A DNA stretch of 64,000 nucleotides from Rhodospirillaceae bacterium (lineage in GTDB: Bacteria > Pseudomonadota > Alphaproteobacteria > Bin65), in assembly GCA_009840595.1 (NCBI GenBank), contig VXNK01000122.1:1-64000 (forward strand), read 5' to 3'. Under the pieces are notes generated by a model. That model did no database searches and was not told the origin of the DNA. It was given only the letters and a program-made list of their open reading frames with translations. This document shows positions 8,553 to 31,157 of the stretch, piece after piece. Made by a program: the position numbers and the translations under genes. Each line of letters opens with the position of its first letter. Position 1 is the stretch's first letter.

Positions 8553-10448
8553 CTATTCCGCGGCCAGCTTCATCGGCTGGGCCTGCATCCATTTCTGGAA
8601 GACGGGCTGGCGCGGCGGGTCGAGGCTGGTGTCGGCCTTGCAGCGCGCCTTGAGCTCCTCGACCGTGCCGCCGGTGTCGAACAGGGCGACGTCGCCGCGC
8701 TCGGCCGCCATGCGGCTGCGCAGGGTCTCGGTCTCGCGCGCATTCACGCTCAGGTCGTCATTCAGCACCACGCCGTAGCGCCGGGCGCCGTCGCGCGTCA
8801 CCAGGCTGCGACGCGTGTCCAGCGCGACCTGCTCGGCGTCGCGCTCCAGCGGGTCGCCCCAGCCGCCGCCGCCCCAGGTGTTGAAGTAGAGCGTGTCGCC
8901 GGGTTCGACATGGACACGGTCGCACTTCGATTCCATCCACTGCTCCGAACCGTCGGCGCGCACCATCAGCTTGGTGCTGCGCCGCCCCGGCAGGCCGCCG
9001 TTGACGCCCCAGGGATGAGTGAGCCAGCGGTCGTCGTGGACCGAGATTTCGCCCGGCTCGAGGAACTGGTAGCCCATCGAGAGACCGTTGCCGCCCCGGT
9101 GCACGCCGGGGCCGCCGCTGTCGGCGATCGTCTCGTATTTCACGATGCGCAGCGGGAAATAGGCCTCGAGGAACTCGTTCGGCACATTGGTGAAAGACGG
9201 CCACAGGGAATGGCCGTCCGGCCCGTCGCCCGCCGGCCGGCCCGGCACGCCGCCGAAGCCGATCTGGTAGAGCTGGTACCATTCGCCGTTCTTGTCGTAG
9301 CCCGAATACATGAAGTGCGGGCTGTCGGAGAAGCCGGCGGCGCACAGCGCGTCGGGCGAACCCTGGCCGAGCAGGCCGCTCATGATGTCGAAGATGCGCG
9401 CCAGCATGTGGGTGCGCGAAGAGAGCGCGGCCGGACGGATCGGTTTCAGGATGGTGCCGCGCGGAATGCGCACGTCGACCAGGTCGTAGAAGCCGTCGTT
9501 GAACAGGATCTGCGGGTCGAAAATGTTGATGAAGAAGGAGCCGAGGAACATCTTGAACATCTCCTCGTTGAGGAGAAAGTTCACCGAGCTGATCGACTGC
9601 GGATCGGTGCCCTCGAAATCGAAGATCACCTTCTCGCCCTCGCGCCACATGGTGCAGGCGATCTTGTAGGGGCCCATGCCGAGGCCGTCGTCGTCGATAA
9701 AGTCCTCGAAATACTGGCGCGATTCCGGGATCACCATCTGGAGGATCGCGCTCATCGCCCGCTTGTTGCGGTCGAGCATCTCGGCCATCGCCGCGTTGAG
9801 CTCGTCGACGCCGAAGCGCTCGGCCATCTCGTGCACCCGCCGCTCGGCGAGGCGCAGGGCGGCGACGACGGCGTTGAAGTCCGAGCGGTTCCAGTCCGGC
9901 AGGCGGCAGTTGCGCAGGATGAGTTCGAGGATTTCCTCGTTCAGCTTGCCCTGGCGGTAGATCTTGACCGGCGGGATCTGGATGCCTTCCTCGAAAATCT
10001 GCGCCGCGTCGGTCGGCAGGCTGCCCGGCACCTTGCCGCCGATATCCGTCATATGGCCGAACATGGCGGCCCAGGCGACGATCCGGCCGTCGATATAGAT
10101 CGGCATCATGGTCAGCCAGTCGTTGAGATGGCTGATCGCGCCGTTGCAGGAATAGGGATCGTTGGTCAGGAAGACGTCGCCTTCCTCGATGTCGCCGTCG
10201 TAACCCTGCTGGAAGCCCCAGAAGAAGGAGCCGAACTGGCCGACGACCATCTTGCCCTCGGCGTTGGCGATCATCGGGAAAGCGTCGTGCTGCTCGCGGA
10301 TGCCGGGAGACATGGCGGTGCGGAACAGGACGGCGTCCATCTCGGTGCGCGCGTTGCGCATCGCGTTCTCGATGATGTCGAGGGTGACGGGGTCGACCTC
10401 GACCTTCTTGAACGGCGCGGTGTTGCTCTGGATCAGGCGGGCTGGCAT
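8553..10448 (-). CDS. hyuB: Hydantoinase/oxoprolinase B subunit (HyuB family)
   Basis: A 631-residue HyuB-family protein that works with HyuA in ATP-dependent opening of cyclic amides (N-methylhydantoin, 5-oxoproline) or in related carboxylases. Conserved family motifs are present: GDVFLTNDPYS at about 90-100, a downstream His at 107 (ISHLND), GHMTDIGG at 131-138 and FEEGIQIPPV near 155. I chose ATG 10448, with GGGAGGAG 6 bases upstream, rather than the much longer open frame running into hyuA. It follows hyuA by 14 bases on the same strand and is the last gene of the unit. Substrate cannot be fixed from sequence. Confidence 0.88.
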   Translation of the reverse strand: MPARLIQSNTAPFKKVEVDPVTLDIIENAMRNARTEMDAVLFRTAMSPGIREQHDAFPMIANAEGKMVVGQFGSFFWGFQQGYDGDIEEGDVFLTNDPYSCNGAISHLNDWLTMMPIYIDGRIVAWAAMFGHMTDIGGKVPGSLPTDAAQIFEEGIQIPPVKIYRQGKLNEEILELILRNCRLPDWNRSDFNAVVAALRLAERRVHEMAERFGVDELNAAMAEMLDRNKRAMSAILQMVIPESRQYFEDFIDDDGLGMGPYKIACTMWREGEKVIFDFEGTDPQSISSVNFLLNEEMFKMFLGSFFINIFDPQILFNDGFYDLVDVRIPRGTILKPIRPAALSSRTHMLARIFDIMSGLLGQGSPDALCAAGFSDSPHFMYSGYDKNGEWYQLYQIGFGGVPGRPAGDGPDGHSLWPSFTNVPNEFLEAYFPLRIVKYETIADSGGPGVHRGGNGLSMGYQFLEPGEISVHDDRWLTHPWGVNGGLPGRRSTKLMVRADGSEQWMESKCDRVHVEPGDTLYFNTWGGGGWGDPLERDAEQVALDTRRSLVTRDGARRYGVVLNDDLSVNARETETLRSRMAAERGDVALFDTGGTVEELKARCKADTSLDPPRQPVFQKWMQAQPMKLAAE

Positions 10449-12908: not shown

Positions 12909-13568
12909 TTATTTCGGCTCGTGGCGATTGCGGCCGCGCCACGCTTCGAGCCAGCCGATCGTCGAATCCGCGTCGGTAATATCACAATAGCGCCGGCCGA
13001 TGTCGCGGAGATTATCGCGGTGCGGCGCCTCGTGATGGTCGCCGACGCAATCCTCCGGGACAATGGTGCGGAAACCCCACTGGAAACTGTCGACCGCCGA
13101 GGCGCGCACGCAGCCGCTGGTCACGCAGCCGGTGACGATCACGGTGTCGACCCGCTCTTTCGCGAAGAGGGCGACCAGCGGCGTCTGGAAGAAGATCGAC
13201 GCGCCGGACTTGCAGAAGGCGACGTCGTAGGACGGATCGTGGATGCGCGGATCGAGCTGCGTGGACGGATGGCCGTGCACCAGGTCTTCGATCACGGCCT
13301 GGACCTTCCAGTAGGGCCGGTCCCGGCCGGTTGCCGAGTAGGCGGTATAGCAGGAGGCGACGGGCACGTCCGCCCGGCGCGCCACGTCCAGCAGACGCGC
13401 GGTGTTACCGACGGCGCGCTGGATCAGCGGCGCGCCGCCCAGCGCGTATTGCGCGTCGGTAAAGGCGGTCTGGAAATCGACGACGACAATGCCCGGCCGG
13501 TTTCCGTAGCCGATTCCGGCCGCTCCGTAGGTCCGATCGACGTAGGTTTCGCTCGATGCGTCTGTCAT
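12909..13568 (-). CDS. Isochorismatase-family cysteine hydrolase (N-carbamoylsarcosine amidase-like)
   Basis: A 219-residue cysteine hydrolase. The expected catalytic triad is visible: D31 (IVVVDFQTAF), K120 (AFCKSGASIF) and C153 (VTSGCVRASAVDS). The family includes isochorismatase, nicotinamidase and N-carbamoylsarcosine amidohydrolase; the genomic link to HyuA/HyuB favours the last, which turns N-carbamoylsarcosine into sarcosine, CO2 and ammonia. The start at 13568 has GGAGGAG just upstream. It is the first gene of a three-gene unit (this, hyuA, hyuB), with 13 bases between its stop and the hyuA start. No signal peptide, so cytoplasmic. Confidence 0.83.
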   Translation of the reverse strand: MTDASSETYVDRTYGAAGIGYGNRPGIVVVDFQTAFTDAQYALGGAPLIQRAVGNTARLLDVARRADVPVASCYTAYSATGRDRPYWKVQAVIEDLVHGHPSTQLDPRIHDPSYDVAFCKSGASIFFQTPLVALFAKERVDTVIVTGCVTSGCVRASAVDSFQWGFRTIVPEDCVGDHHEAPHRDNLRDIGRRYCDITDADSTIGWLEAWRGRNRHEPK

Positions 13569-14781: not shown

Positions 14782-14789
14782 GCGGCGCG

Positions 14790-16190
14790 ATGACCGAACT
14801 GGACTGGATGCCGATCGCCGACCTGGCGGAGAACATCCGGGCGAAACGGGTTTCGCCGGTCGAGGCCGTTCAGGCCTGCCTCGACCGGATCGAGCGGCTG
14901 AACGGCGGGCTGCGCGCCTTCATCTCGGTCTATCCGGAGCAGGCGCTGGCCGCCGCCCGCGCCGCCGAGGCGGCGGTCATGGCGGGCGGGAATACCGGGC
15001 CGCTGCACGGCGTGCCGCTGGCGGTCAAGGACCTGTTTGCCGTCCGGGGCATGGTGCGGACTTGCGGCTCGCGCCTGATCGGCGAGGGCCCGGGCGAAGC
15101 GGACGCCGAGGCCGTCGCCGCCCTGCGTGCCGCCGGAGGCATCGTCGTCGGCCTTGCAAACCTGCACGAATTCGCCTTCGGCCCGACCGGGATAAACCCG
15201 CATTTCGGCACGGCGCGGAACCCGTGGGACCGCAGCAAGGTGTGCGGCGGTTCGAGCAGCGGGTCGGGCTGCGCCGTGGCGGCCGGCCTGGTGCCGGGCG
15301 CCATGGGTACGGACACCGGCGGCTCGGTGCGCATCCCGGCGGCGCTGTGCGGCCTCGTCGGGCTGAAGCCGACCCATCTGCGCGTCAGCCAGCAGGGCAT
15401 CTATCCGCTGGTGGGCGAATTCGATACCGGCGGCCCGATGACCCGCTCGGTCGACGATACCGCGCTCATGATGGCGGCGCTCGACCCGGACGGCGGGTTC
15501 GGCGCCCACCGGGCCCTGCCGTCGCTGAAGGGGACCCGGATCGGCGTGCTGCAAGCCCTGTTCGAGGACGGTATCGACCCCGATATCGCCGTGCAGTGCC
15601 GCGCCGCCATTGCCGTTCTCGACTCGCTCGGCGCGGAGATCGAGGCTCCCGCCCTGCCGTTCGCGGACGATGCGGTAACGGCCTGGACGACGATCACCCT
15701 CGGCCGGGTCTACGCCCTGCACGGCGCGCGCGCCGAGGCAGCGGACAGCAAACTGGCGCCCAACGTGCGCGAGCGGGTCCTGACCGGACGGGACATTACC
15801 GCCGGCGATATCGAGAAGGCGCTGTCGGTCCGGCAGGCGGTGCAGGCGCAGGTCTCGGAACTCATGCAGCGTTACGATGCTCTCGTCCTTCCGATGACGC
15901 CGATTCCGGCCGTCGACGCCGCCGACGGGCAGGGCAGTCTGGATGGCGTGCCGGTCGACGGAGCCAGGGCGCTCGGGCGGCTGGCGCGCCTCGCGTCCTT
16001 CACCGGCCAGCCGGCGGTGACGGTTCCCTGCGGCCTGACCTCGGGCGGATTGCCGGCCGGTCTGCAGTTGATCGGCGAGCGGAACGGCGACGAAAGACTG
16101 CTCGGGATCGCAGCCTGTTACGAAGCGGCAAGCGGCTGGGACGGCCGGCGACCGCCGATGGCCGCCCCGGAAGACAGGCGGGCAGGCTAA
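14790..16190 (+). CDS. Amidase (amidase-signature family)
   Basis: A 466-residue amidase-signature enzyme. The Ser-cisSer-Lys triad is complete with the family spacing: K80 (VKDLF), S155 (GGSSSGSG) and S179 (TDTGGSVRIPA). These enzymes hydrolyse amides; they include GatA and many catabolic amidases. No gatB or gatC is adjacent, so a free-standing catabolic amidase is more likely than a tRNA amidotransferase subunit. The start lies 8 bases after the membrane-protein gene. With the nearby hydantoinase and N-carbamoyl hydrolase it fits a region that releases nitrogen from amides, though the substrate is unknown. Confidence 0.85.
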   Translation: MTELDWMPIADLAENIRAKRVSPVEAVQACLDRIERLNGGLRAFISVYPEQALAAARAAEAAVMAGGNTGPLHGVPLAVKDLFAVRGMVRTCGSRLIGEGPGEADAEAVAALRAAGGIVVGLANLHEFAFGPTGINPHFGTARNPWDRSKVCGGSSSGSGCAVAAGLVPGAMGTDTGGSVRIPAALCGLVGLKPTHLRVSQQGIYPLVGEFDTGGPMTRSVDDTALMMAALDPDGGFGAHRALPSLKGTRIGVLQALFEDGIDPDIAVQCRAAIAVLDSLGAEIEAPALPFADDAVTAWTTITLGRVYALHGARAEAADSKLAPNVRERVLTGRDITAGDIEKALSVRQAVQAQVSELMQRYDALVLPMTPIPAVDAADGQGSLDGVPVDGARALGRLARLASFTGQPAVTVPCGLTSGGLPAGLQLIGERNGDERLLGIAACYEAASGWDGRRPPMAAPEDRRAG

Positions 16191-16290: not shown

Positions 16291-16758
16291 ATGAGCGGTT
16301 GGGGGTGGTTCTGGACGCTCGTCGGCTTCCTCGTCTACATCGTCGTCCTGATTTTCCTGTTCTTCTACAAACCGTTCGAAGAACTGTTCAATTTCATCAT
16401 CGCGGACACGACCTTCGACAATGTCGTGTTCTGGGCGGCCCTGCTCACCGGCATCGTCGGCTTCTGCGGCTATCATTGGCGGGCCTACCGGCTGCATATC
16501 GTCGAACAGCGCAGCATGGAGAATATGGTGCTGAGTTCGCTGCGCGGCTCGACCTTCATCGCCATCCTGATCGGCGCGGGCGCGACCTTGCAATCGGTCC
16601 AGACCCTGATCGTCTACCTGGTGCGCGAGCCGGTCGTGCTGGGACCGGACCTCGGCAAACGGATCGCCGCCGTCCTGGCGTTGATCGTGCTGACCGGCGT
16701 GTTCTCGATCATCTTCTGGCTGCTGAGGCTGGTTCGCTTCCACACGGAGCGCGCCTGA
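16291..16758 (+). CDS. Small four-helix membrane protein, paralogue of 30648-31157
   Basis: A 155-residue protein with four hydrophobic segments and no known motif. It is clearly homologous, over most of its length, to the 169-residue protein at 30648-31157: both have a first helix ending in YxPFE(E/K)L, a second helix starting VVFW/IVFW followed by a His-Trp (YHW / AHW), a third helix, then VLGPDLGKR / VLDPVFGRK, and a last helix ending LxRxVRxF. The start has GGGAGG 6 bases upstream. It sits between the amidase and the polyamine-type binding protein. Each copy lies close to a hyuA/hyuB locus, which suggests a shared role. Confidence 0.75.
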   Translation: MSGWGWFWTLVGFLVYIVVLIFLFFYKPFEELFNFIIADTTFDNVVFWAALLTGIVGFCGYHWRAYRLHIVEQRSMENMVLSSLRGSTFIAILIGAGATLQSVQTLIVYLVREPVVLGPDLGKRIAAVLALIVLTGVFSIIFWLLRLVRFHTERA

Positions 16759-16929: not shown

Positions 16930-18213
16930 ATGACCATGCCGAGAAAATCGACATTGCACGAAATGAAGACCGGGCTGTCGCGCCGTCGGTTCGTGCTAAC
17001 AACTGCAGGCGCCGCTGCGGCCGGAACCATGACCGGCGTGCCCGCCATCGTGTACGGTGCCGAATCGATCCGGACCATCGGGCTCGGCGTCAGCATCATC
17101 AACGAGATCCAGAGCAAGGCGTCGAAAGATACCGGCGACAAGATCCGCGGCCAGGCGCTCGGCTACGGCGCCATGATCGGCAAGATGCTGAACCAGAACG
17201 ACCAGTACGAAGTTGCCGAAGGCTACTTCAACGACATGGATCTGATGATCCCGGCAAAGGTCTGGCAGCCGATCGACACCAAGCGCATCAAGAACTGGGA
17301 CAAGGTCTCCAACCTGACCAAGACCGGGCGCCTGTCAGCGGGCTCGAGCCTGGGACAGGGCGATGCGCCGTTCCGCCATCTCTGGCTGAACAAGGACGGC
17401 AGCCGGGCCAGCGGGCCGACGCAGTACATCTCCATGCTGCCCGGCTGGCACAACGCCGATTCGATCGGCTACAACCCGGACGAGACCGGCCGCAAGATCG
17501 AGAGCTGGGCCGAGTTGTTCAGCCCCGATTTCAAGGGCAAGGTCGCGCTGGTCAACGCGCCGCAGATCGGCACGATGGACGCCGCCATGGCCGTCGAGGC
17601 CATGGGCCTGATGAAGTTCGGCAACAAGGGCGACATGACCCGGGCCGAAATCGACAAGCTGGTCAACTTCCTGATCGAAAAGAAGAAGGAAGGCCACTTC
17701 CGCGCGTTCTGGGAAACCTTCGGCCAGTCGGTCAACCTGATGGTGAGCGGCGAGGTCGCGATCCAGAGCATGTGGTCGCCGGCGGTCACCGCCGTGAAGG
17801 CCGAGGGCGTGCCCTGCATCTACGCAGCGCCGAAGGAAGGCATGCGCGGCTGGCATGGCGGCTGTGCCATTTCGGCAAGGGTTACCGGCAAGCAGCTCGA
17901 CGCCGCCTACGAGTATCTCAACTGGTGGCTCGACGGCTGGGCCGGCGCCTTCGTCGCCCGCCAGGGCTACTACATGTCGGTATGGAGCAACGTGAAGGAC
18001 CATCTCTCGCAGGAGGAATGGGACTTCTGGTACCTCGGCAAGCCCGCCGCCAAGGAGCTGAGCGATCCGTTCGGCACGCCGATCGTCAAGAAAGGCGAAA
18101 TCCGCGACGGCGGTTCCTACGAGGCCCGCTTCAAGAATATCGCCGTCTGGAACTCGCTCATGAAGGAAAACGACTACCTCGTGAAGCGCTGGACGGAATT
18201 CCTGAGCGCCTGA
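16930..18213 (+). CDS. Twin-arginine-exported ABC substrate-binding protein, polyamine type
   Basis: A 427-residue periplasmic binding protein (PotD/PotF-like group). The leader has a twin-arginine motif SRRRFVLTT at 17-25 followed by an Ala-rich core and a likely cut after VYGA (about 44), so it should be exported folded through Tat. The mature protein has group-typical stretches such as WAELFSPDFKGKVALVN and YEYLNWWLDGWAG. Two PotB/PotC-like permease genes follow. A strong hairpin in the 132-base gap probably keeps the binding protein in excess over the permeases. Ligand (polyamine, opine or other amine) cannot be fixed. Confidence 0.85.
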   Translation: MTMPRKSTLHEMKTGLSRRRFVLTTAGAAAAGTMTGVPAIVYGAESIRTIGLGVSIINEIQSKASKDTGDKIRGQALGYGAMIGKMLNQNDQYEVAEGYFNDMDLMIPAKVWQPIDTKRIKNWDKVSNLTKTGRLSAGSSLGQGDAPFRHLWLNKDGSRASGPTQYISMLPGWHNADSIGYNPDETGRKIESWAELFSPDFKGKVALVNAPQIGTMDAAMAVEAMGLMKFGNKGDMTRAEIDKLVNFLIEKKKEGHFRAFWETFGQSVNLMVSGEVAIQSMWSPAVTAVKAEGVPCIYAAPKEGMRGWHGGCAISARVTGKQLDAAYEYLNWWLDGWAGAFVARQGYYMSVWSNVKDHLSQEEWDFWYLGKPAAKELSDPFGTPIVKKGEIRDGGSYEARFKNIAVWNSLMKENDYLVKRWTEFLSA

Positions 18214-18254
18214 CGGGCTCAATCGCTCCGGCCTTCAGGGCCGAAACGGCATGG

Positions 18255-18281
18255 CAAGGGCGGGGCCTGTCCCCGCCCTTG
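18255..18281 (+). terminator. Intercistronic hairpin between binding protein and permeases
   Basis: CAAGGGCGGGG and CCCCGCCCTTG form a perfect 11-bp stem with a 5-base loop. Only a short T run (CTCTTT) follows, so it is better read as an attenuating or mRNA-stabilising stem than as a full terminator. Confidence 0.6.
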
Positions 18282-18345
18282 CGCCGCTCTTTAGCCTCTC
18301 TCTTCGTCCGCCCGGCCGCCCCGGCGGGCGCCGGCTGACGCCGCC

Positions 18346-19341
18346 ATGCTTCAGACTGCGCCACCGCATGCAAAACGGCATCACAGCGGCCTGATCGGCG
18401 ACCAGCCGGCGCCGCCGGCGCAGGACATCGCGCGGCTGAAGAAAACCAAGCGCGACCAGGCCATCCATCCCGGCTGGCTGGTCGCGCCGGCAAGTCTCTG
18501 GCTGATCGTCTTTCTCGTCGTGCCGCTGATCGGCATCGTGGTGTTCAGCTTCTGGACGCCGATCAGGGGCGGCATGACGCCGGACTTCACGCTCATCAAC
18601 TTCGGCAATTTCTTTCGGCAGGAAGGATTTTTCGATCCCGAACACCGCAATTTCCTGAAGCTCAGCATTTTCCTGACCACCCTGTGGACGACCTTCCGCT
18701 TCACCATCACCGTGATGGCCGTCTGCCTGATCATCGGCTACCCGATCGCCTTTTTCCTGGCGATGCAGGTGAAGAATTTCAAATGGCAGCTGGCGCTGTT
18801 CCTGGTGGCCATGGTGCCGTTCTGGACCAGCTACCTGATCCGCGCCGTGGCCTGGCTGCCGATGCTCGGCCGGCGCGGCCTGTTCAACAAGATGCTGATG
18901 AATCTGGGCATCATCGACAAGCCGAGTTCCTTCTTCCTGTATTCCGAGTTCGGCTACACGATGGCGCTGGCGCAGCTTTATGTCGTGCTGTGCATCGGGC
19001 CGATCTTCTTTTCGCTCGCCAAGATCGACAAGAACATCCTCGAAGCGGCGCGGGACATGGGGGCGAGCAATTTCCAGGTCTTCCGCGAAATCATCCTGCC
19101 GCTGTCCCTGCCCGGCGTCGCCATCGGCATGATCTTCCTGTTCGTCATGCTGATGGGTGAGTTCGCCACCGCCGTGGTCGTCTACGGCGGCAAGACATCG
19201 ACCACCGGCACCGTGATCCTGAACTACTACGCGACCGCCAACTATCCGTTCGCCGCGGTGAACGCGATCATGCTGATGCTGGCGATGATGATCGGCGTGT
19301 TCTTCATCCTGCGCGTCGTCGACATCCGCAAGGAGCTGTAG
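18346..19341 (+). CDS. ABC transporter permease, PotB-like
   Basis: A 331-residue inner-membrane permease with a cytoplasmic N-terminal tail of about 45 residues and six main hydrophobic segments. The EAA loop that contacts the ATPase is present (EAARDMGASNFQVFREIILP, around 230-250). It is the first of two permeases of a polyamine-type importer; its stop is 3 bases before the next start. No ATPase gene follows; the likely partner is on the other strand at 22289-23380. Confidence 0.88.
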   Translation: MLQTAPPHAKRHHSGLIGDQPAPPAQDIARLKKTKRDQAIHPGWLVAPASLWLIVFLVVPLIGIVVFSFWTPIRGGMTPDFTLINFGNFFRQEGFFDPEHRNFLKLSIFLTTLWTTFRFTITVMAVCLIIGYPIAFFLAMQVKNFKWQLALFLVAMVPFWTSYLIRAVAWLPMLGRRGLFNKMLMNLGIIDKPSSFFLYSEFGYTMALAQLYVVLCIGPIFFSLAKIDKNILEAARDMGASNFQVFREIILPLSLPGVAIGMIFLFVMLMGEFATAVVVYGGKTSTTGTVILNYYATANYPFAAVNAIMLMLAMMIGVFFILRVVDIRKEL

Positions 19342-19344
19342 GCG

Positions 19345-20172
19345 ATGGCGCGCTGGACCCGGCGGCGGACGAAGGCGCTGGCCGTGAAAACCGGCTTCAG
19401 CATCTATTACGTCCTGTTCATCGTCTTCATTTTCGGGCCGATGATCGCGATGTTCGCCCTGTCCTTCCAGGGCCGGCGCGGCGGCACCAGCTTCCCGATG
19501 CGCGGGTTCAGCACCTACTGGTGGGAGAAGCTGCTCGAGCCGTCCTCGATCGGCGATCTCCAAGGCGCGCTCGCCCGATCGCTCATCCTCGCGCTGGTCG
19601 TCATGGTCATCACGGCGCTGTTCTCGACCATGCTGGCGATGGCCTTCCGGCGCAAGTTCCGGGGCTCCAACCTGCTGTTCTACACGATCATGCTGGGCCT
19701 GATGGTGCCCGGCGTGCTGCTCAGCCTGGGCCTCGCCACCCTGATGCGCCAGATCGGCATTCCGCCGGCCTGGTGGTCGTCGGGCCTGGGCGTCCATGTC
19801 GTCTGGACCCTGCCCTTCGGATTTCTTGTGATGATGGCCGTCTTCAACCGGTTCGACAGCAGCCTGGAGGAGGCCGCCCGGGACATGGGCGCCGGCGAAT
19901 GGACGGTATTCCGGGAGATCACCCTGCCGCTCATCCTGCCCGGCATCGTGGCTGCCGGCCTGTTCGGCTTTACGCTGTCCTACGACGAGTTCGCCCGGAC
20001 GACCCTGCTGTCCGGCGAATACAATACCCTTCCGCTGGACATCAACGCCTCGATGACCCAGCGCATCCGCCCGACCCTGTTCGCGCTCGGCACCGCCTCG
20101 ACGATCTTCTCCTTCTGCCTGATCGGGCTGTTCATCGTGGTCTACACCATCCTGTACCGGCGCTCGCGGTAA
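19345..20172 (+). CDS. ABC transporter permease, PotC-like
   Basis: A 275-residue permease with six hydrophobic segments and a conserved EAA loop (EEAARDMGAGEWTVFREITL, around 175-194). It forms the second half of the membrane channel with the upstream gene, from which it is separated by 3 bases. The C-terminal region (SYDEFARTTLLSGEYNTLP) matches PotC-type proteins. It converges with the acyl-CoA dehydrogenase gene. Confidence 0.88.
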   Translation: MARWTRRRTKALAVKTGFSIYYVLFIVFIFGPMIAMFALSFQGRRGGTSFPMRGFSTYWWEKLLEPSSIGDLQGALARSLILALVVMVITALFSTMLAMAFRRKFRGSNLLFYTIMLGLMVPGVLLSLGLATLMRQIGIPPAWWSSGLGVHVVWTLPFGFLVMMAVFNRFDSSLEEAARDMGAGEWTVFREITLPLILPGIVAAGLFGFTLSYDEFARTTLLSGEYNTLPLDINASMTQRIRPTLFALGTASTIFSFCLIGLFIVVYTILYRRSR

Positions 20173-21842: not shown

Positions 21843-22265
21843 ATGGTCGTGCTCGACACGAATGTGGTGTCGGAACTGATGCTCGACACTCCAAACTCGA
21901 GCGTTCTTTCCTGGGTCGATGGCGTTCCGGCCCTGGAATTGTTCGTAACGGCAGTAACGGAGGCGGAAATTCGCACTGGCATCGCCTTCCTGCCCGAAGG
22001 CGCACGCAGGCGAAATCTATTGTACGCTGCCGAACGCACGCTCGGCCTCTTGTTCGCCGGCCGGATTCTGCCGTTCGACAGCATCGCCGCCCGCGCCTAT
22101 GCGGAAATTGCCGCCGTTCGCCGGTCTGCCGGCCGGCCGATCGGGGAGGCGGACTGCCAGATCGCCGCGATCGCCCGCTCCCGCGGCATGGCCGTGGCGA
22201 CGCGCAACGTCCGCGATTTCGCCGATACCGGGGTCGAGACGATCGACCCGTGGGCGAGCGTCTGA
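21843..22265 (+). CDS. fitB: PIN-domain toxin, FitB/VapC family
   Basis: A 140-residue PIN-domain ribonuclease. The metal-binding acidic residues are in place: D5 (VVLDTNVVSEL), E40/E42 (TEAEIRTG), D104 (GEADCQIAAIA) and D125 (TRNVRDF). Such toxins cut RNA (tRNA or rRNA in known VapC cases) and are held inactive by the paired antitoxin. It follows the antitoxin by 21 bases, the usual order. The gene looks intact. Confidence 0.92.
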   Translation: MVVLDTNVVSELMLDTPNSSVLSWVDGVPALELFVTAVTEAEIRTGIAFLPEGARRRNLLYAAERTLGLLFAGRILPFDSIAARAYAEIAAVRRSAGRPIGEADCQIAAIARSRGMAVATRNVRDFADTGVETIDPWASV

Positions 22266-22288: not shown

Positions 22289-23380
22289 CTACGGATTCTG
22301 CTCCAGCAGCACGCCGGCGTCGGCGGGCCAGCAGATCGTCTCGCGTTCGCCGGGCTCGTACATGCGGTCGTTGACGCCGCGATGCTGCTCGACCGAGACG
22401 TATGCGTCGGGCGCAATCTCGAACACATCGGTCTCCAGCGATCCCTTGAACTCGGTCGTGACGTAGGTGCCTTCGACCCGGTTCGCCATGTCCGGGTGCT
22501 GGCCGGTGTGCATGAGGTCGGCGCGCACCGAGAAATGCGCCTCGCGGTCGATATGGACGGCCGCGATATAGTCCGGCACGCGGACGTAGAACATCTTGCC
22601 GTGCGCCTCGACCAGCACGATCGAGCCGGAGCGCGAGCGCACCGTGCCGCGGAACAGGTTGTTGTTGCCGATGAAGGAAGCGACGAAGCTGGTGCGCGGC
22701 GATTCGTAGATCTCCCGCGACGTGCCGGTCTGCTGGATCAGCGCGTCGCTCATCACGATGACCTTGTCGGCCATCGACATGGCCTCCTCCTGGGAGTGGG
22801 TCACCATGATGAAGGTGATGCCGGTGTCGCGCTGGATCTTCTTCAGTTCGATGATCATCGACTGGCGCAGATTGTAGTCCAGCGCGCCGAGCGGCTCGTC
22901 GAGCAGGAGCACCGTCGGCTCGCTGATCAGCGCCCGGGCGAGCGCCACGCGCTGCTGCTGGCCGCCGGAAAGGTCGTGCGGCCGGCGGTCGGCGAGCGGC
23001 CCCAGGCCGACCATCTCCACCATGTCCCGGGTCCGGCGCGACCGCTCCTCCCTGGGCACGCCCTGCATCTTCAGGCTGAACTCGACATTCTGGTGCACGT
23101 TGCGGTGCGGAAAGAGCGCGAAGCTCTGGAACATCATGGAGGTGTTGCGCTGGGACGGCGGCAGGTCCGTCACATCCTTGCCGGCGAGCCAGATTTTGCC
23201 GCTGGTCACTTCCTCCAGGCCGCCGATCATGCGCAGGGTCGTCGTCTTGCCGCAGCCGCTCGGCCCCAGCATCGCGACGAACTCGCCGTGCCGGATTTCG
23301 GCGTTGAAATCGATCACGGCGCGCACGTTGCCCGGAAAGGTCTTGTTCACCCCATCCAGGACGACGTCATAGTCGGTCAT
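22289..23380 (-). CDS. ABC transporter ATP-binding protein, PotA-like
   Basis: A 363-residue importer ATPase. Walker A is GPSGCGKTT (about 39-47), signature LSGGQQQR (about 136), Walker B LLLDEPLGALD, and switch His in VTHSQEEA. Residues from about 235 onward form a TOBE-like regulatory domain, as in PotA and related proteins. Its probable partners are the binding protein and permeases at 16930-20172, but it lies 2.1 kb away on the opposite strand, separated by the acyl-CoA dehydrogenase and the toxin-antitoxin pair. The link is inferred from type and from the lack of any other candidate in the window. Confidence 0.88.
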   Translation of the reverse strand: MTDYDVVLDGVNKTFPGNVRAVIDFNAEIRHGEFVAMLGPSGCGKTTTLRMIGGLEEVTSGKIWLAGKDVTDLPPSQRNTSMMFQSFALFPHRNVHQNVEFSLKMQGVPREERSRRTRDMVEMVGLGPLADRRPHDLSGGQQQRVALARALISEPTVLLLDEPLGALDYNLRQSMIIELKKIQRDTGITFIMVTHSQEEAMSMADKVIVMSDALIQQTGTSREIYESPRTSFVASFIGNNNLFRGTVRSRSGSIVLVEAHGKMFYVRVPDYIAAVHIDREAHFSVRADLMHTGQHPDMANRVEGTYVTTEFKGSLETDVFEIAPDAYVSVEQHRGVNDRMYEPGERETICWPADAGVLLEQNP

Positions 23381-23435: not shown

Positions 23436-25994
23436 TCAGTCGGTCTTTTCCGTCAGCGCGGTCAACAGCGACCAGATCGTCTCGAACGGCACGTCGGCGA
23501 AGTCGCCCTGTGCCGCCACCTGCCTGAGCAGGCCGACGGCGCGCTGCTGCGCCGGATCGTTGCCGGCGGCATCCTCCAGCGTGCCGACCGCCTCGCCGAG
23601 CGGCGCCTGCCGTGCCGCCGCGGTGCCGAGTTCGCGGTCGACCAGGACCTTGAGCTGCCCGTGGGCCTGGAGCAGCAGGCCGCTGTCCGCCGGCCGGCCG
23701 AACAGGCCGCGCAGCCCGTTGGCGTTGAAGCGGTCGCGCAGGCCCTCCGGCATCGAATGGGCCAGACCCTCCATCGCCTCGCCCAGGCCGAAGCCGGAGT
23801 TGAACAGGCCGCGGATCGTGTCCATCGTGCCGTCGTTGCTGCCGCCATACATGCGGATATGCGCGCCCTCCAGGGCGTTGCCCATGGCCTTGGCCTGGTC
23901 GATATGGACGTCGCGCTCGGCCTCGATGAAGAGCTTCGAGAGCTCCAGGAACATCGCGGCTTCGTTGTATTTCTTGAGCGCGTCGGCCTTGGCCTCCATG
24001 CCGGCGGCCTCGGCCTTCAGCTTCTCCTCGGTCCGCTGGACGCGCAGCGCCTCGATCTCCATCTCGGCGCGGCCGCGGGCGCCGGCCTCGCGCTCGACGC
24101 CCTCGGCGGTGATCTTCTGCGCCTCGCTGTTGGCGTTGGCCTTTGTCAGCGTGGCCGCGGCCTCGCGCTCCGCCGCCTGTTGGCGCGCCTCGGACTGGGT
24201 GACCATGTGCATGCTGGCGATCTGCGCCTTCGCTTCTTCGGCGATCCGCTCGGCCGCGGCCTGCTTCTCGGCCTCGATGCGCCGGATTTCCTTCTCCGTC
24301 TCGGCGTCGGCGAGATGGCCGGCGGCCTCGGCGGCGTGGGTCGCCCGGATGCGGTCGGCGGTGGTGGCCAGCCGGTCGGCCTCGGCAGCTTCCAGTTCCC
24401 TGGTTTTCTGCTCCATCGCGATCTCGCGGTCGCGCTCCTCGATCTCACGCGCCAGGAAACGCCGGATGTCGATGGTCTCGCGCTCCTGTTCCTTGCCGAT
24501 CAGCGCGATTTCCCGCTCCCGCTCCTCCAGTTCGACGGCGAGCTGGCGTTTGATCTCGGCGGCTTCCTTCTTGGTGCCCTCGTCGATAATCGCCGCGTCC
24601 TTCTCGATCCGGGCGGCCTCATAGGCCCGCTCCTTCTCGATCTCCTCCTGCTGCACGGTCCAGCGCTGTTCGATGATGAAGCGCTGGGATTCGCTCATCG
24701 TCCGGGCTTTTTCGTTGGAGACTTCCTGCTCCTGGTTGGCAGCGGCGAACTCCTCTTCCTTGTCCAGTTCCAGCAGGTTCAGCCTCGTCGCCAGGCTGAG
24801 CCGGCGGGTCTCCAGCGCCGCCTGCTCGGCGGCCTTGTGGCGTTCGATCCGGGCCGACTCCTCTTCGGCGGCGACCGCCGTCGCCTGGGCGATGTCGGCC
24901 TTCTGGCGCTCGATCTCCTTCTGGATCAGGCCGATCTGCTTGTCCTTCTCGGCTTTCTCGCGCGCCAATGCGCGGTCGATCTCGGCCAGTTCCTCTTCCT
25001 TGGCCTTGGCGATGATGGCGATTTCCTTGTCGCGCCGTTCCTGCTCCAGCTTCAGGGCCTTCTGGATTTCCGACGCCTCGCGCTTCTGGGCCTCTTCCGT
25101 GATCGCCAGTTCGCGGTCGGTGCGCATCTTCTCGAGCTCGACCTCGTTGCCGATCTCCTGTTCTTCCACCGCCTTGCGCTGGTTCAGGATGAAAACCTGC
25201 TTCTCGCGCATCTGCAGGGCTTCCTCGTTCGAGATCGCCTTGTCCTGGTTGGCCCGGGCGGTCGCCTCCTGGCGCTCGATCTCCAGCAGTTCGAGCTGGG
25301 TATCCAGGTCCTTCTGGCGGATCGCGACCGTGGTGCGTTTTTCGGTGTCGTGGACCTTGCGCCGGGCGTCGCTGGTGATCTCGGTGATGATCTTCAGGCC
25401 TTCGGCGTCGAACACGTTGTCGGTCTTGAAATGCTCCTTGCCGGTCTGTTCCAGGGTGACGACAGTGACCTCTTCCAGCGTCAGGCCGTTGGCGTTGAAG
25501 CTTTCGGTCACGTTGGCCTTGATCGCCTCGGCCATCGCCTCGCGGTTCTCGTGCAGTTCCTTGAGCGACTTGGTGGCGGCATAGCTGCGCAGGGCGCCGA
25601 CCACCTTGGCTTCGAGCAGGGTGCGCACCTTTTCCGGATCGAAGGTCTTTTCGCCCAGGCTGCGCCCGGCGGTCAGCAGTTCCTGCTCGGTCCGGCCGAC
25701 ATGGGTGTAGAGCTCCGCCGCAACGTCGACGCGGACATTGTCGTGGGTCAGCACCGCCTGGTCGCGCGAGCGGCTGACGATCAGCTTGATCGTTTCCAGC
25801 GAGACCCAGGTCACCTCGTGGAACACGGGCAGGACGATCGCGCCGCGGCCCAGGCACACCTTGGTGCCGAGGAAGCCGGTGCGGATGAAGCCCATGTTCG
25901 ACGGCGCGCGCTTATACACCCAGATCGACAGGATGTAGACGATCGCAACGACGATGACCGCCAGCACAATGCCGACGATGATGTTTTCAACCAT
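23436..25994 (-). CDS. Giant flotillin-like SPFH protein with extended coiled coil
   Basis: An 852-residue membrane-anchored protein. One N-terminal hydrophobic helix (about 5-24), an SPFH/band-7 domain (about 27-200: SNMGFIRTGFLGTKVCLGRG, later LTLEEVTVVTLEQTG), then about 430 residues of charged heptad-rich coiled coil, and a C-terminal domain with FGLGEAMEGLAH. Flotillins scaffold ordered membrane domains; usual length is about 450-550. The coiled coil contains an internal duplication: ISNEEALQMREKQVFILNQR (about 255) is echoed by VSNEKARTMSESQRFIIEQR (about 430). No NfeD gene is adjacent. A 1681-codon frame on the other strand is its shadow. Confidence 0.85.
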   Translation of the reverse strand: MVENIIVGIVLAVIVVAIVYILSIWVYKRAPSNMGFIRTGFLGTKVCLGRGAIVLPVFHEVTWVSLETIKLIVSRSRDQAVLTHDNVRVDVAAELYTHVGRTEQELLTAGRSLGEKTFDPEKVRTLLEAKVVGALRSYAATKSLKELHENREAMAEAIKANVTESFNANGLTLEEVTVVTLEQTGKEHFKTDNVFDAEGLKIITEITSDARRKVHDTEKRTTVAIRQKDLDTQLELLEIERQEATARANQDKAISNEEALQMREKQVFILNQRKAVEEQEIGNEVELEKMRTDRELAITEEAQKREASEIQKALKLEQERRDKEIAIIAKAKEEELAEIDRALAREKAEKDKQIGLIQKEIERQKADIAQATAVAAEEESARIERHKAAEQAALETRRLSLATRLNLLELDKEEEFAAANQEQEVSNEKARTMSESQRFIIEQRWTVQQEEIEKERAYEAARIEKDAAIIDEGTKKEAAEIKRQLAVELEEREREIALIGKEQERETIDIRRFLAREIEERDREIAMEQKTRELEAAEADRLATTADRIRATHAAEAAGHLADAETEKEIRRIEAEKQAAAERIAEEAKAQIASMHMVTQSEARQQAAEREAAATLTKANANSEAQKITAEGVEREAGARGRAEMEIEALRVQRTEEKLKAEAAGMEAKADALKKYNEAAMFLELSKLFIEAERDVHIDQAKAMGNALEGAHIRMYGGSNDGTMDTIRGLFNSGFGLGEAMEGLAHSMPEGLRDRFNANGLRGLFGRPADSGLLLQAHGQLKVLVDRELGTAAARQAPLGEAVGTLEDAAGNDPAQQRAVGLLRQVAAQGDFADVPFETIWSLLTALTEKTD

Positions 25995-26102: not shown

Positions 26103-28376
26103 CTACGCTCCCCCGCCGGGGGACCGGCCGGGCGACATAGCGCGCGACCGGCCGAGCGTTTCGCGCATGTCCTGCGTCGCCGCTTCGTCCACCGTACAGG
26201 CCGCCGGACTGCCGGCGACGACCACACCATAGCGATCCCGGGCCGTAACCGTCGAGACCAGGCCGCTCCGGACGTCTTTCTGGACCCGTTCGGGCGCGCG
26301 GTCCAGCGGATTGCCCCATCCGCCGCCGCCCGCGGTCCGGAAAACGAGCCGGTCGCCGGCCGCCACCTTCACGCCATCGGCTTTCGAGCCCGGCTCTTCG
26401 CGCGACCCGTCTGTCCGGACGACGATCCTGGCCGACGAAGCCCCCGCCTCGCCGCCGTCGCGGCCCCAGGGCCGGGACCGGTCCCGGTCGTCGCGCCAGC
26501 TTACCTCGCCGGCAGCCCGGAAACGGTAGACCTTCTCGATCCCGCACCCGCCGCGCTGCGCTCCAGCGCCGCCGCTGTCGGCGATCGCCGCCACACGTTC
26601 CACGGTCACGGGATGATCGGATTCGAACTGCTCGACCGGACGGGTCCTGGCGCCGGACGACAGCGAGCGGCCGTCCTGCCCGTCCCGGCCGGAACGCGCC
26701 GGCCCGCCGCCGAAGAGGCGGTCGGTGAAGCGGACCGCCTGCCCGCCCGCGTCGCGACCGCTGAAGGTAACGAGCGGGCTCGATCCGTAGCCGGCCGCCG
26801 TCGCCGCCTCGCCGGCGCACTGGCCGAGCGCACCGTTCAGCACGTCGTAGACCCTAGCCAGGGTCTGCGCCCCGTTGCCCAGCGGCGCCGGAAAGTGCGG
26901 GCGCAGCAGGCTGCCCGAGGGAACGGTGATCCGGAAGGCGTCGAGCAGGCCGTCGTTCACGGCGATTTCCGGATCGAAGGCCCGGATCAGCAGCCCGCCG
27001 GCGAGATGGGCGAAGGCTGCATCGTCCAGCAGCAGGTTGACCGGTCCTTCCGCCTGGGCGGACGTGCCGGTCCAGTCGAAGAGGGCCCGGTCGCCCTCGC
27101 GCCAGACCGCCAGCTTGAGAGTAAAAGGCCCGTTGCCGCAGCCGTCGCTATCCAGCACGTCCTCAAACGATTTCGGCTCTTCGGGCAGGTGCGCCGCGAC
27201 AATCCTGCGCACTGCGCGTCCGGTGCGTTCTTGCGCCGCCGTGCAGGCCTGCCGGTAGCATTCGGTGCCGAAGCGAACGCACAGGTCGGCGATGCCCAGC
27301 TCGCCGGTCTGCGCCGCGGCGACCAGGGCCCGCAGCTCGCCGTGGGCCGCGTCGGGTTCGGGCAGGTTGTTCAGGATCACGTCCAGCGCCGCCCGGTTGG
27401 CCGCGCCGCGCTCGTGGATGAGGACCGGCGGAATGCGCAAACCTTCGCGGTGGACCGACGTCGCGCCGTTAGACCGGCTGTCCGGCGCCGTGCGGCCGTC
27501 CGGAATCGGGGCCGACGCCACACTGAAGCCGACGGGGTCGCCGGCCTCCGGGCCGAAGACAGGAACGATGGCGCACCACTGGCCCGCGGGCGCGCCGGCA
27601 TAGGGATCGCCCAACAGAAAGACGTCGCCGGGTTGCATGTCGCGCGACCGGTCGCGGACCAGGGCAGCGACGGCCGGCGCCGGCCTGCCGATCAGCGCGG
27701 CGCCGCGGGCGTCGGTCAGGGTCGCGGCGTCGGCCGCCTTCTGGCGCGCCGCATCGCCGAGTGCGCCCTGGGCCAGGGCGATGCCGGCCTCCTTGCGGAT
27801 CTGGCGCCAGGCCGACTCGATCCGGTCGAGCGTCAGCCCGTCCAGCGCGCCGCTCGGCGCCGCTGCGGCGCGCGGGCCTCCGGCCGGTCGGGTCGCGGGC
27901 GTGGCCGCCGGTGCGTGCGGCAGGTTGCGCTCCGCGGCGGGCGCCGACGGCTGCCTACCGTAGGCCAGCGCATCCGCCGCCTTGGCGAGCGCAGACCGGC
28001 GCGCCGCCTCCAGCGCCGCATCGCGATCGCCGTCCGCCGCCGCGTCGCCGAATTCCAGCGCCGAACGGCCGTCGACCGTCAACCGGTAGAGCGCCGACAG
28101 CCTGCCGCCGGTGATCTGGGTTTCGACCAGTTCGGCCGACCAGTCGTCGCCGAACCGGCGGTTCAGTGTTGCGTCGATGTCCGGGTCCGATCCGGCGGGC
28201 GGCTTAGCAGGCGCCGCCCCGACAGTCGCGGACGATTGCGCGGACGACGGCTGCCGGTTGCGCAGGCCGGCGGCGTCCGCCTGGCGCAGCCGGTCGGCGA
28301 AGGTCCGGTCGAACTGCTCGCGGGTCGATTGCAGCAGCGCATCGAGCGACGAGGCCGAAGGGCGGGGCGGCGTCAT
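26103..28376 (-). CDS. HyuB-like protein with degenerate site and long N-terminal extension
   Basis: A 757-residue protein whose residues about 180-757 are HyuB-like (DRIESAWRQI; GDVFLLGDPYAG at 250-261; HREGLRIPPV; final GGGGWGNPLDR). Compared with the intact HyuB at 8553-10448, NDPYS is GDPYA, the downstream ISHLND is lost and GHMTDIGG is replaced by SAPIPDGRT, so the presumed metal/catalytic site seems broken. Residues 1-180 are extra: helix, low-complexity linker, and a compact segment at 65-140 (RRFGDDWSAELVETQITGG, LEFGDA, a KAADAL helix) that recalls Rad52-type annealing folds by eye only. Its ATG overlaps the HyuA-like stop by 4 bases (ATGA), so the pair is translationally coupled. 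Confidence 0.78.
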   Translation of the reverse strand: MTPPRPSASSLDALLQSTREQFDRTFADRLRQADAAGLRNRQPSSAQSSATVGAAPAKPPAGSDPDIDATLNRRFGDDWSAELVETQITGGRLSALYRLTVDGRSALEFGDAAADGDRDAALEAARRSALAKAADALAYGRQPSAPAAERNLPHAPAATPATRPAGGPRAAAAPSGALDGLTLDRIESAWRQIRKEAGIALAQGALGDAARQKAADAATLTDARGAALIGRPAPAVAALVRDRSRDMQPGDVFLLGDPYAGAPAGQWCAIVPVFGPEAGDPVGFSVASAPIPDGRTAPDSRSNGATSVHREGLRIPPVLIHERGAANRAALDVILNNLPEPDAAHGELRALVAAAQTGELGIADLCVRFGTECYRQACTAAQERTGRAVRRIVAAHLPEEPKSFEDVLDSDGCGNGPFTLKLAVWREGDRALFDWTGTSAQAEGPVNLLLDDAAFAHLAGGLLIRAFDPEIAVNDGLLDAFRITVPSGSLLRPHFPAPLGNGAQTLARVYDVLNGALGQCAGEAATAAGYGSSPLVTFSGRDAGGQAVRFTDRLFGGGPARSGRDGQDGRSLSSGARTRPVEQFESDHPVTVERVAAIADSGGAGAQRGGCGIEKVYRFRAAGEVSWRDDRDRSRPWGRDGGEAGASSARIVVRTDGSREEPGSKADGVKVAAGDRLVFRTAGGGGWGNPLDRAPERVQKDVRSGLVSTVTARDRYGVVVAGSPAACTVDEAATQDMRETLGRSRAMSPGRSPGGGA

Positions 28377-30457
28377 GCGTCGGCGCTCCCGCTGCGGTCC
28401 GGTGCGATCACGAGGGCGCCGTCCGCTCCGACGGCGCCGGCATAACCGGGATGGACCGGCGCCGTCCAATCGCCGCCGGCGACGAGGGCCGGTCCGGCAA
28501 TCCGGCTGCCGGCCTCCAGTCTGCCGGCCGCGTAGACCGGCGCGCTCAGGAAAGCGCCCTCCAGATAGACGCGCTGCTCGCCGATACGCGCGGCCGAAGC
28601 GTCGCCCGATCCGGCCCGCCGGCCCGACGCCCGGCCTGAAGCCCGGCCTTGCGATCCGCCGTTACGCCGGTCCGCCGCCCGGCCGCCGGCGACGGCGCGC
28701 AGGCGGACCAGTTCGACCGGCGCGCCGAGGCGCACGCCATGCTGCTGCTCGAAGGCCGCGTGGAACCGGTCCTCCAGATCGCGCAATCCCCAGTTCGGCA
28801 GGTTGGCCGGATCGACCTCCAGGGCGAAATCGCCGCCCCCGCCGCGGAACCGCAAATCGGCCTCGAAGCGGAGTCGGCGGCCGGTCGCCGGCGCGCCTTC
28901 GCCGTCCAGCCAGTCATTCGCCCGTGCGCCCAGCCCGTCCAGAATTTCGCCGACCGCCGCGGCGTTGATATCGTCGAGCAGCCGCCGGCAGCTTTCGCCG
29001 AATTCCTGGCGCGGCGGCGCTTCGGCATAGCCGCGCGCCGACATCGCGCCCGGCTGCGCCGGCACGACAACCGGCCCGTCGCCGCACAGTATGGCCAGCG
29101 CGTTGCCGTGCAGCGGCCCGGCGCCGCCATAGGCGATCAGCGGCATCGAAGCGATATCGACGCCGTGCGCTGCTGCGGTCTGGCGCAGGGCGCCATACAG
29201 TTTCTCGATGGCCAGGTCGCGGATGCCCTGCGCCGCCTGGAAGGGGTTTGCGCCCAGCCGGTCGGCGAGGCGGGCGATGGCAGCTTCTGCAGCGGTGCGG
29301 TCGGGTCCCCGGTCCTGCCCGTTGCCGCTGTCCGGGCCGGCCGGGATCAGGCCAAGCACAAGATTTGCGTCGGTCAGCGTCGGTCCGTCGCCGCCGAAAC
29401 AGGCCGGGCCGCCATCTGCAGCCCCGGGGCCGACGCGCAGGGCGCCGTGGCCGGTCAGCCGGACCGCCGCACCGCCGCCGGCGCCTGCCCGGTCGACCGC
29501 GATCGACGGCAGGGTCAGGTTCGCGCCGGCGACCGGCGTCTTGCGCGTGACGACGGGCGCGCCGTTCCGGACGATGCCGATGGTCGCCATGCCGCCGCCC
29601 ATATCGAGCGCCAGCGCATCGCGGCAGCCGGCGTGCGACGCCGCTGCGGCTGCGGCAGCCACGCCGGCGGCCGGACCGGCATTGAGCGCATCGACCGGCG
29701 CATCCCCGGCATGCGCCAGCGACATGGACCCGCCGTCGGCGCGCGCGACCCGGACTTCTGCCGTGGACTCTAGGGCGCGCAGCGAATCGGTGAATGTTTC
29801 GAAATACCGGGTCAGCGTCGGGCGCAGGACGGCCGCCGCCACCGCCGCGACGGTCCGTTCGTAGTCGGCGGCTTCGCGGACGACGTCGCTCGACAGGGTC
29901 ACCGGCAGATCGGCGTCGATATCGCCGGCCAGCGCCCCGAGCGCCCGTTCGTGCGCCGGGTTGGCCGCCGCATGCAGCAGGGAAACCGCAATGGCCTCCG
30001 CGCCCATCTCACGCAGGGCCTGGATCGCCGCCCGGGCCTTCGCTTCGTCGATCGGCTGCTGCACCTGCCCGCGCGCATCCATCCGCTCGGCGACGCCGAG
30101 GGTCGCGACAATGCCGCCGGCCAGCGGGCTTGCGCCCTGGCCGCGTCCGAGATGGAGCACATGCTCGAAGCCGGCGGTGACCAGCAGGCCGACGGCCGGG
30201 CCGCCGGTCTTGGCCGGATCGAGGTCCAGGACGTCGTGAACGGGCGCGCCGTGAACGACCGTCGCGATGTCGCCCGGCGCCACGCCCGCTCCGTCGGCCA
30301 GCGCGCGGATACCGGCGGCAACCGCGGCAACCGGGTCGCCGGGGTCGTTGGGCATCTTTAGGGCGTGCGCCGTCCCCGACTCGTCGAGCAGCACCAGATC
30401 CGTGAAGGTCTTGCCGATATCGATTCCCAGGCGGTGGGGCATGGAGATTTCCGTCAT
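28373..30457 (-). CDS. HyuA-like protein with altered nucleotide-binding motifs
   Basis: A 694-residue HyuA-family protein. The fold is recognisable (YGGAGPLHGNALAIL; DANLVLGLIP; AGAGGG) but key motifs differ from the intact HyuA at 10463-12895: VDVGGTFTD becomes IDIGKTFTD (13-20), HGTTVATN becomes HGAPVHDV (69-76), DMGGTSTDV becomes DMGGGMATI (285-293), and the Asn-Tyr of NSYIRP is lost. ATP hydrolysis is therefore doubtful. The frame is long and undamaged, so it is conserved as a protein and not a fresh pseudogene. Start at ATG 30457 is uncertain; 30442 is also possible. It is coupled to the HyuB-like gene by a 4-base overlap. Confidence 0.8.
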   Translation of the reverse strand: MTEISMPHRLGIDIGKTFTDLVLLDESGTAHALKMPNDPGDPVAAVAAGIRALADGAGVAPGDIATVVHGAPVHDVLDLDPAKTGGPAVGLLVTAGFEHVLHLGRGQGASPLAGGIVATLGVAERMDARGQVQQPIDEAKARAAIQALREMGAEAIAVSLLHAAANPAHERALGALAGDIDADLPVTLSSDVVREAADYERTVAAVAAAVLRPTLTRYFETFTDSLRALESTAEVRVARADGGSMSLAHAGDAPVDALNAGPAAGVAAAAAAASHAGCRDALALDMGGGMATIGIVRNGAPVVTRKTPVAGANLTLPSIAVDRAGAGGGAAVRLTGHGALRVGPGAADGGPACFGGDGPTLTDANLVLGLIPAGPDSGNGQDRGPDRTAAEAAIARLADRLGANPFQAAQGIRDLAIEKLYGALRQTAAAHGVDIASMPLIAYGGAGPLHGNALAILCGDGPVVVPAQPGAMSARGYAEAPPRQEFGESCRRLLDDINAAAVGEILDGLGARANDWLDGEGAPATGRRLRFEADLRFRGGGGDFALEVDPANLPNWGLRDLEDRFHAAFEQQHGVRLGAPVELVRLRAVAGGRAADRRNGGSQGRASGRASGRRAGSGDASAARIGEQRVYLEGAFLSAPVYAAGRLEAGSRIAGPALVAGGDWTAPVHPGYAGAVGADGALVIAPDRSGSADA

Positions 30458-30647: not shown

Positions 30648-31157
30648 ATGGCGCAGGAAACCGAGGGCGTGCGTTCCCTACGATACTGGATCGTTGTTGT
30701 CGGCCTCGTGATCCTGGCGGTCTTCGTCTATTTCTATCCGCCGTTCGAGAAGCTGGTCAGCGACAGCATCCGCGGGCTCGCCTCGTCCACCATCGTCTTC
30801 TGGTTCGCCGCTTTCGTCGGCGTCGTCGCCTACGTCATCGCGCACTGGCAGTCCTTCCGGCAGCATTTCTTTCGCAGGGTCAACGATCTCGACGCCGAGG
30901 GGCTGGTGTTCGATACGCTGCAGGTGGCGCTGCTGGTGGCGCTGATCCTGTGCGCCGGCGGGATCCTTCAACTGATCGAGATGCTGAGCCTGCATCTGAT
31001 CGACAAGGGGACGGTGCTCGATCCGGTCTTCGGGCGCAAGCTGCTCGCCATGATCGTCGTGGTGATCCTGGCCATCGGCTTCTATCTGCTGCACCGCATG
31101 GTGCGCGCCTTCCGGCTCGGCCGCCGCCCCGGCCGCACCCCGCCGCGCCGCAGCTAA
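30648..31157 (+). CDS. Small four-helix membrane protein, paralogue of 16291-16758
   Basis: A 169-residue protein with four hydrophobic segments and a basic C-terminal tail (GRRPGRTPPRRS). It is the second copy of the protein at 16291-16758; shared points are FYPPFEKL versus FYKPFEEL, TIVFWFAAFVGVVAY versus NVVFWAALLTGIVGF, and VLDPVFGRKLLAMIVV versus VLGPDLGKRIAAVLAL. It is divergent from the degenerate HyuA/HyuB pair. Function unknown. Confidence 0.75.
   Translation: MAQETEGVRSLRYWIVVVGLVILAVFVYFYPPFEKLVSDSIRGLASSTIVFWFAAFVGVVAYVIAHWQSFRQHFFRRVNDLDAEGLVFDTLQVALLVALILCAGGILQLIEMLSLHLIDKGTVLDPVFGRKLLAMIVVVILAIGFYLLHRMVRAFRLGRRPGRTPPRRS

Follow-up and report, generated by a model that had tools for sequence, protein, structure and literature searches.

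A putative two-subunit pseudoenzyme of the HyuAB family within a hydantoinase-transporter-SPFH gene cluster

Why would a bacterium keep both genes of an ATP-dependent metalloenzyme after much of the active site that they encode has gone? The question is raised by a stretch of 64,000 nucleotides from a Rhodospirillaceae bacterium (contig VXNK01000122.1, positions 1 to 64,000, hereafter the window), which carries two gene pairs of the HyuAB family, the family of CapAB caprolactamase, N-methylhydantoinase and 5-oxoprolinase. One pair, A1 (10463..12895, minus strand, 810 aa) and B1 (8553..10448, minus strand, 631 aa), is intact, and B1 has all four metal ligands. The other, A2B2, combines open frames with eroded motifs, and the original prediction, made from the sequence alone, took it for a conserved pseudoenzyme pair and not for decay. 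Intact frames, purifying selection and the absence of the metal ligands from every complete B2 uphold that view. Catalytic death under continued selection is well supported at the sequence level, and the reading of A2B2 as a conserved two-subunit pseudoenzyme strongly so. We also lean, with modest assurance, towards a present role of the pair as a scaffold or regulator in the cluster that surrounds it.

Our literature search returned no paper joining hydantoinase with pseudoenzyme. What appears new is that a whole A+B pair died together, that constraint shifted within B2 and that B2 carries an undescribed N-terminal module. Both halves of the enzyme would have died together, and apparently active orthologues occupy the same cluster elsewhere, so that before and after can be compared directly by experiment. 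There is a practical side as well: the genus appears to be sponge-associated, the N-methylhydantoinase genes of sponge symbionts have been read as creatinine degradation (PMC6742649), and HyuAB annotations in such genomes can count dead pairs as enzymes.

The pair and its catalytic-site positions

A2 (28373..30457, minus strand, 694 aa) starts with ATG at 30457 and stops at 28373; B2 (26103..28376, minus strand, 757 aa) starts with ATG at 28376 and stops at 26103. The A2 stop and the B2 start overlap as ATGA (in GCATGACG), and the claim of two full-length frames coupled in this way thus stands. A2 matches Pfam Hydant_A_N (1.5e-27) and Hydantoinase_A (3e-53), B2 matches Hydantoinase_B (1e-102, aa 227-690), and the Hydantoinase_A and Hydantoinase_B families span the full length of these adjacent genes above the Pfam cut-offs, which places the pair in the HyuAB fold family. 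A2B2 resembles the (alpha-beta)2 CapAB-type enzymes in its full-length subunits, domain order, A-B operon order, interface fingerprint and GGGGWG segment; unlike them, it has none of the four metal ligands, has lost parts of each phosphate loop and carries an extra N-terminal module on B. The hydantoinase-B core of B2 (26142..27842, minus strand, aa 179-745) compares with the caprolactamase-type structure 6yra_B at Z 14.5 in a low-confidence model; beyond the N-terminal domain the full-length model is of poor quality (mean pLDDT 52), and we do not interpret the core from it. Local GC over 26103-30457 is 74%, against about 67% around it, an excess due to raised codon positions 1 and 2.

What has been lost is best judged against caprolactamase, which requires CapB D41, H99, D102 and H124 together with CapA D11 and D295: alanine at any of the four CapB positions abolishes activity, and D11A and D295A are nearly inactive (PMC8453981). 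We compared motifs in an alignment of 24 sequences and scored losses by alignment columns, since these motifs vary and a regular-expression count over-called their loss. In every complete B2 all four metal ligands are gone, with A, G or N at D41, H99 and D102 deleted or replaced, and P at H124. In the window, on the minus strand, the region of ligand 1 (27732..27746) reads RQKAA against canonical REQHD; that of H99 and D102 (27576..27611) reads GDPYAGAPA-GQW against SDPYKCGGAISHINDW, four residues including H99 being deleted and the D102 position lost; and that of ligand 4 (27495..27512) reads APIPDG against GHMMD. The polyglycine segment GGGGWG is kept in the core. The same ligands are present in each of about 65 other HyuB proteins wherever the columns align.

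In A2 the damage is uneven. Phosphate loop 1 (30398..30421, minus strand) reads DIGKTFTD for canonical DVGGTFTD, keeping D and TFTD with G replaced by K (by A in G006), and loop 2 (29579..29605, minus strand) reads DMGGGMATI for DMGGTSTDV, keeping the first D and losing T and the last D. Neither DIGKTFTD nor DMGGGMAT matches the DxGGTxTD and DxGGT patterns of active HyuAB. HGTTVxTN has become HGAPVHDV (30230..30253, minus strand) in a stretch that is variable and gapped in orthologues, the SGPAGG motif is changed, and an 11-residue loop is deleted.

Most of the motif changes that the original prediction had listed are thus real in alignment: those of loop 1 and HGTTVxTN in A2 and, in B2, the disappearance of SHxND through the four-residue deletion and of GHMMDVGG, now SAPIPD-GR. 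Others need correction. The loss in loop 2 is genuine but had been given as GGMATI; NDPYS went only in part, GDPYA retaining D-P-Y; and the phosphate motifs of A2 were called lost although the first Asp of both loops and the ATP-contacting Lys equivalent to K32 remain. The intact pair at 8553-12895, to which A2B2 had been compared, does differ in these motifs but is a paralogue (about 36% identical) and not an orthologue.

The residues that remain in A2 raise the possibility of another chemistry, in which A2 binds or hydrolyses ATP through its kept Asp despite the G-to-K change in loop 1, or B2 uses a metal-free site. The equivalents of CapA D11, T15, D18, K32 and D295 are indeed retained in all or nearly all copies, so by sequence the ATP site is damaged rather than erased, and A2 may possibly still bind nucleotide. 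Yet the changes to the loop 2 Thr and last Asp, HGTTV, SGPAGG and the 11-residue loop would fall on the substrate side, B2 has no metal ligand left, and a single D11A or D295A replacement cripples caprolactamase (PMC8453981). The former active-site positions also drift freely. Conservation of the changed residues is not strong: the HGTTV and GGTSTD positions differ from one orthologue to another. Because the former motifs differ among eroded copies, we take the site to have been released and not remodelled or rebuilt. We consider a new chemistry improbable.

Such losses occur in 7/7 genus members; on the same columns, the other proteins aligned (about 62 HyuA and about 65 HyuB) show none. Among universally invariant columns, 71/242 in A and 64/233 in B are lost in every eroded copy, and 122/242 and 119/233 are kept in all of them. 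The alpha-beta interface fingerprint of the family, R/KERiDsxG (described in PMC5214803), is retained in the eroded pair (ERMDARG to ERVGADG, with ER and G kept), as is the glycine-rich segment TAGGGGWG in all copies aligned. These retained features suggest that A2 and B2 would still fold and pair.

Orthologues, gene cluster and selection

Is this pair a peculiarity of one genome? The other six genomes of the genus (G001-G006) carry A2 at 94, 80, 80, 80, 78 and 55% identity without stops, and B2 likewise in all members, the copies in G003 and G004 being split by contig ends. Both pairs are absent from the other genera of the same family that were examined. When we searched with a profile of the B2 N-terminus, the gene turned up in three more families (G011; G195 and G288; G202 and G294), and the A2 and B2 of these five genomes are canonical, with every motif present including D-H-D-H in B2. 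These canonical copies are 69-76% identical to those of G011, and the genus copies only 41-43% identical to their canonical orthologues, against about 69-72% for A1.

A conserved cluster of about 22 kb recurs in the window, G002, G006, G011, G202 and G294, and both hydantoinase pairs are parts of it. It begins with a small membrane protein gene divergent from A2 (30648..31157, plus strand), followed by A2, B2 and, directly downstream of B2, an SPFH/Band-7 membrane protein with a long coiled coil (23436..25994, minus strand; PF01145 1.9e-14), which is syntenic in all cluster-bearing genomes. Then come a PotA-like ABC ATPase (22289..23380, minus strand), two PotB/PotC-like permeases and a solute-binding protein (16930..20172, plus strand), a second small membrane protein (16291..16758, plus strand) that is a paralogue of the first, a syntenic amidase-signature hydrolase (14787..16190, plus strand), a membrane protein, a syntenic isochorismatase-family amidohydrolase upstream of A1 (12909..13568, minus strand; PF00857 3.9e-31), and finally A1 and B1. 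In G195 and G288 the A1B1 pair is found on a separate contig. Positions 21522-22265 of the window, which separate the PotA gene from the permeases, hold a small gene pair that looks by eye like a FitA/VapC-type toxin-antitoxin system and is found also in G002 and partly in G001. A GC-poor membrane protein gene (6638-8308, about 45-50% GC) adjoins the intact pair and is unmatched in those regions of the relatives that were compared.

In the protein tree the eroded clade has support 100/100 and a stem of at least 1.6 changes per site; with such long branches and three groups the tree alone cannot place this clade, and orthology comes from synteny and the common N-terminal module. Even G006, which diverges most within the genus, is eroded, and orthologues in three other families retain all motifs in the same cluster; loss on the stem, before the crown, is therefore most likely. 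Starting from a pair that by sequence was a complete ATP-dependent hydantoinase, in the same cluster, B shed its whole set of metal ligands on this stem, and A parts of its ATP site and the 11-residue loop, after which both frames stayed open under purifying selection.

The presence of a dead and an active pair in one conserved cluster recalls the trypanosomatids, in which dead paralogues of deoxyhypusine synthase and of AdoMet decarboxylase, the latter called the AdoMetDC prozyme, are kept beside the active enzyme and activate it (PMC3663545, PMC5201418). By analogy A2 and B2 could join mixed heterotetramers with A1 and B1, activating or stabilising them allosterically, and the kept interface fingerprint fits such pairing. 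The family itself offers a precedent in the acetophenone carboxylase core complex (alpha, alpha', beta, gamma; PMC5214803), with two duplicated HyuA-type subunits in one complex; in that complex each A-type subunit has its ATP module, whereas here the whole A+B pair has degenerated. The trypanosomatid activators have other folds and come from other organisms. Moreover, A1 and A2 share only about 36% identity, their duplication is older than the erosion, and canonical A2B2 looks complete on its own, so that its ancestry does not require pairing with A1B1. We hold an activating partnership to be rather unlikely.

Open frames could also mean simply that dispensable genes are decaying slowly, the frames being open either as GC-rich DNA has few stops or as the SPFH and PotA genes further downstream depend on translation through them. 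Some relaxation is evident: GC1/GC2 of the eroded pair is 0.80/0.57 against 0.70/0.49 in A1, GC3 is lowered, and omega is about 2-3 times that of active relatives. Within the genus, a MGK+F3X4 codon model gave omega of 0.158 for A2 and 0.172-0.174 for B2, unchanged without G006, compared with 0.074 and 0.095 for canonical A2 and B2 and with 0.057 and 0.055-0.059 for A1 and B1 of the genus; pairwise NG86 values agree. Setting omega to 1 costs 442 (A2) and 386 (B2) lnL units, and neutrality is rejected; kappa was fixed at 2.0 in this null and not fitted, which cannot account for a gap of this size. When the genes of G000 were left to drift neutrally in simulation, at dS 0.3-1.2, stop-free copies survived in 0-5% of runs per gene, compared with 7/7 genomes.

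The omega values argue strongly against slow decay. Open frames alone would not keep amino acids, but omega stands at 0.16-0.17, and 122 and 119 invariant columns persist. Constraint has, besides, tightened in one particular domain of B2, as described below, and slow decay is to our mind very improbable. The refutation checks run on the original prediction thus all came out in its favour, with orthologues present and free of stops in all other genus members and dN/dS (0.158 for A2, 0.172 for B2) far below 1. Since catalytic residues are lost while the protein is held by purifying selection, A2B2 qualifies by its sequence as a pseudoenzyme.

The N-terminal module and the shift of constraint

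The original prediction had not mentioned that B2 carries an N-terminal extension of about 175 aa, made up of a helix (aa 9-38) and a globular domain (aa 65-140), each followed by a linker, with the enzyme core beginning at aa 179. The helix (28263..28352, minus strand; AlphaFold2) bears the motif SLDxLLxSxxxQFDxxF, conserved in all families. The domain (27957..28184, minus strand) is predicted by AlphaFold2, at pLDDT of about 90, to have an alpha-beta-beta-beta-alpha, Rad52-like fold. Its model best matches RAD52 8rj3 (VIA Z 9.8, rmsd 1.7, 75 residues; Foldseek E 3.4e-4 to the Rad52 fold), followed by Mgm101 and then, about 2 Z units lower, by dsRBDs (Z about 7) and ribosomal proteins. At the sequence level the domain matched no Pfam family, nor Rad52/Mgm101 or dsRBDs among PDB profiles, PF04098 (the Rad52 family) has no match in G000, and an hhalign comparison with a single bacterial Rad52 lent no support (E 0.09 over 9 columns); weak PDB profile matches to uS19 and HflC (E 0.03-1) are not believed. 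The domain is thus modelled as a Rad52 fold resembling the annealing domains of Rad52/Mgm101 and dsRBDs, here seated on an enzyme subunit, and a common fold does not show DNA binding.

What makes this module telling is where selection now acts. In eroded B2, omega is 0.14 for the N-terminal domain and 0.24 for the core; in canonical B2 it is 0.32 and 0.08. The ratio of dN in the domain to dN in the core is 0.69 (0.47-0.97) in eroded copies and 4.8 (3.6-6.4) in canonical ones, with overlap in 0/2000 bootstraps, although the canonical pairs in this comparison are more distant and the close pair G195/G288 reaches only 1.2. At comparable depth, canonical pairs reach 3.8 (G202/G294) and that same 1.2, and eroded pairs 0.74-0.75, so that the choice of pair affects how large the shift is but not which way it goes. 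Constraint on the eroded core is about 3-fold weaker than in canonical orthologues. Constraint has therefore been inverted, the N-terminal domain being tighter and the catalytic core looser than in canonical orthologues, and this points with unusual clarity to a changed function. From this move we infer a regulatory or structural job for A2B2.

Possible roles within the cluster

Our preferred reading is that the A2B2 complex would act through its N-terminal module as a scaffold or regulator of A1B1, the transporter and the SPFH protein. A1 too has an N-terminal helix (aa 7-27), followed by a Pro/Ala linker of about 100 aa. The helix, DLTxWFDSxLxDxxxxxDxL, and linker occur in cluster-bearing genomes where the A1 start is covered and are missing in most genomes with A1B1 alone, and among 240 sampled genomes only those with the cluster have close orthologues of the SPFH protein. 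This link between the N-terminal extensions of A1 and B2 and the SPFH protein is suggestive, coming as it does from a single clade and not from independent evidence.

One may take the scaffold further and envision a membrane-anchored metabolon, proposed because known SPFH proteins form membrane-attached cages (PMC11260169, PMC12624060). An SPFH cage or dome would sit at the transporter, and the pathway enzymes (A1, B2 and small proteins that partner isochorismatase-type amidohydrolases) would dock to it through helices at their N-termini, borne on long disordered linkers; within the genus, the second hydantoinase would have given up catalysis and become a pure scaffold subunit with a Rad52-fold docking domain. 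This elaborate version we consider quite unlikely.

Short proteins encoded directly downstream of isochorismatase-family genes open with the B2 helix motif, [FL]DDLLAxNxxQFD, and several end in SGTANGIPFTLK. They lie at L106:12525-13103 (minus strand, G017), L055:12174-12510 (minus strand, G011), G202:C29 near 57.5 kb and G294:C55 near 116.3 kb. In G017 the B2-type module, helix plus Rad52-fold domain, stands alone as a protein next to an isochorismatase-type gene, and the short frames at the like position in G011, G202 and G294 start with FDDLLAxN or FDDMLASN. Helices of this kind might have been tags for cargo. We rejected encapsulins, as PF04454 is absent from 8 genomes, and bacterial microcompartments, as G006 and G011 carry the same N-terminal helices but PF00936 was not found there. 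Two microcompartment shell genes do exist at G000:C77:69577-71158 (L066, L067) and are present in six genus members, not in G006. Elsewhere in the window, the protein encoded at 54387-55466 resembles polysaccharide-deacetylase-like neighbours in G011, G017, G202 and G294, and an RYxPR pattern in its N-terminal stretch recurs in the equivalents of these four genomes.
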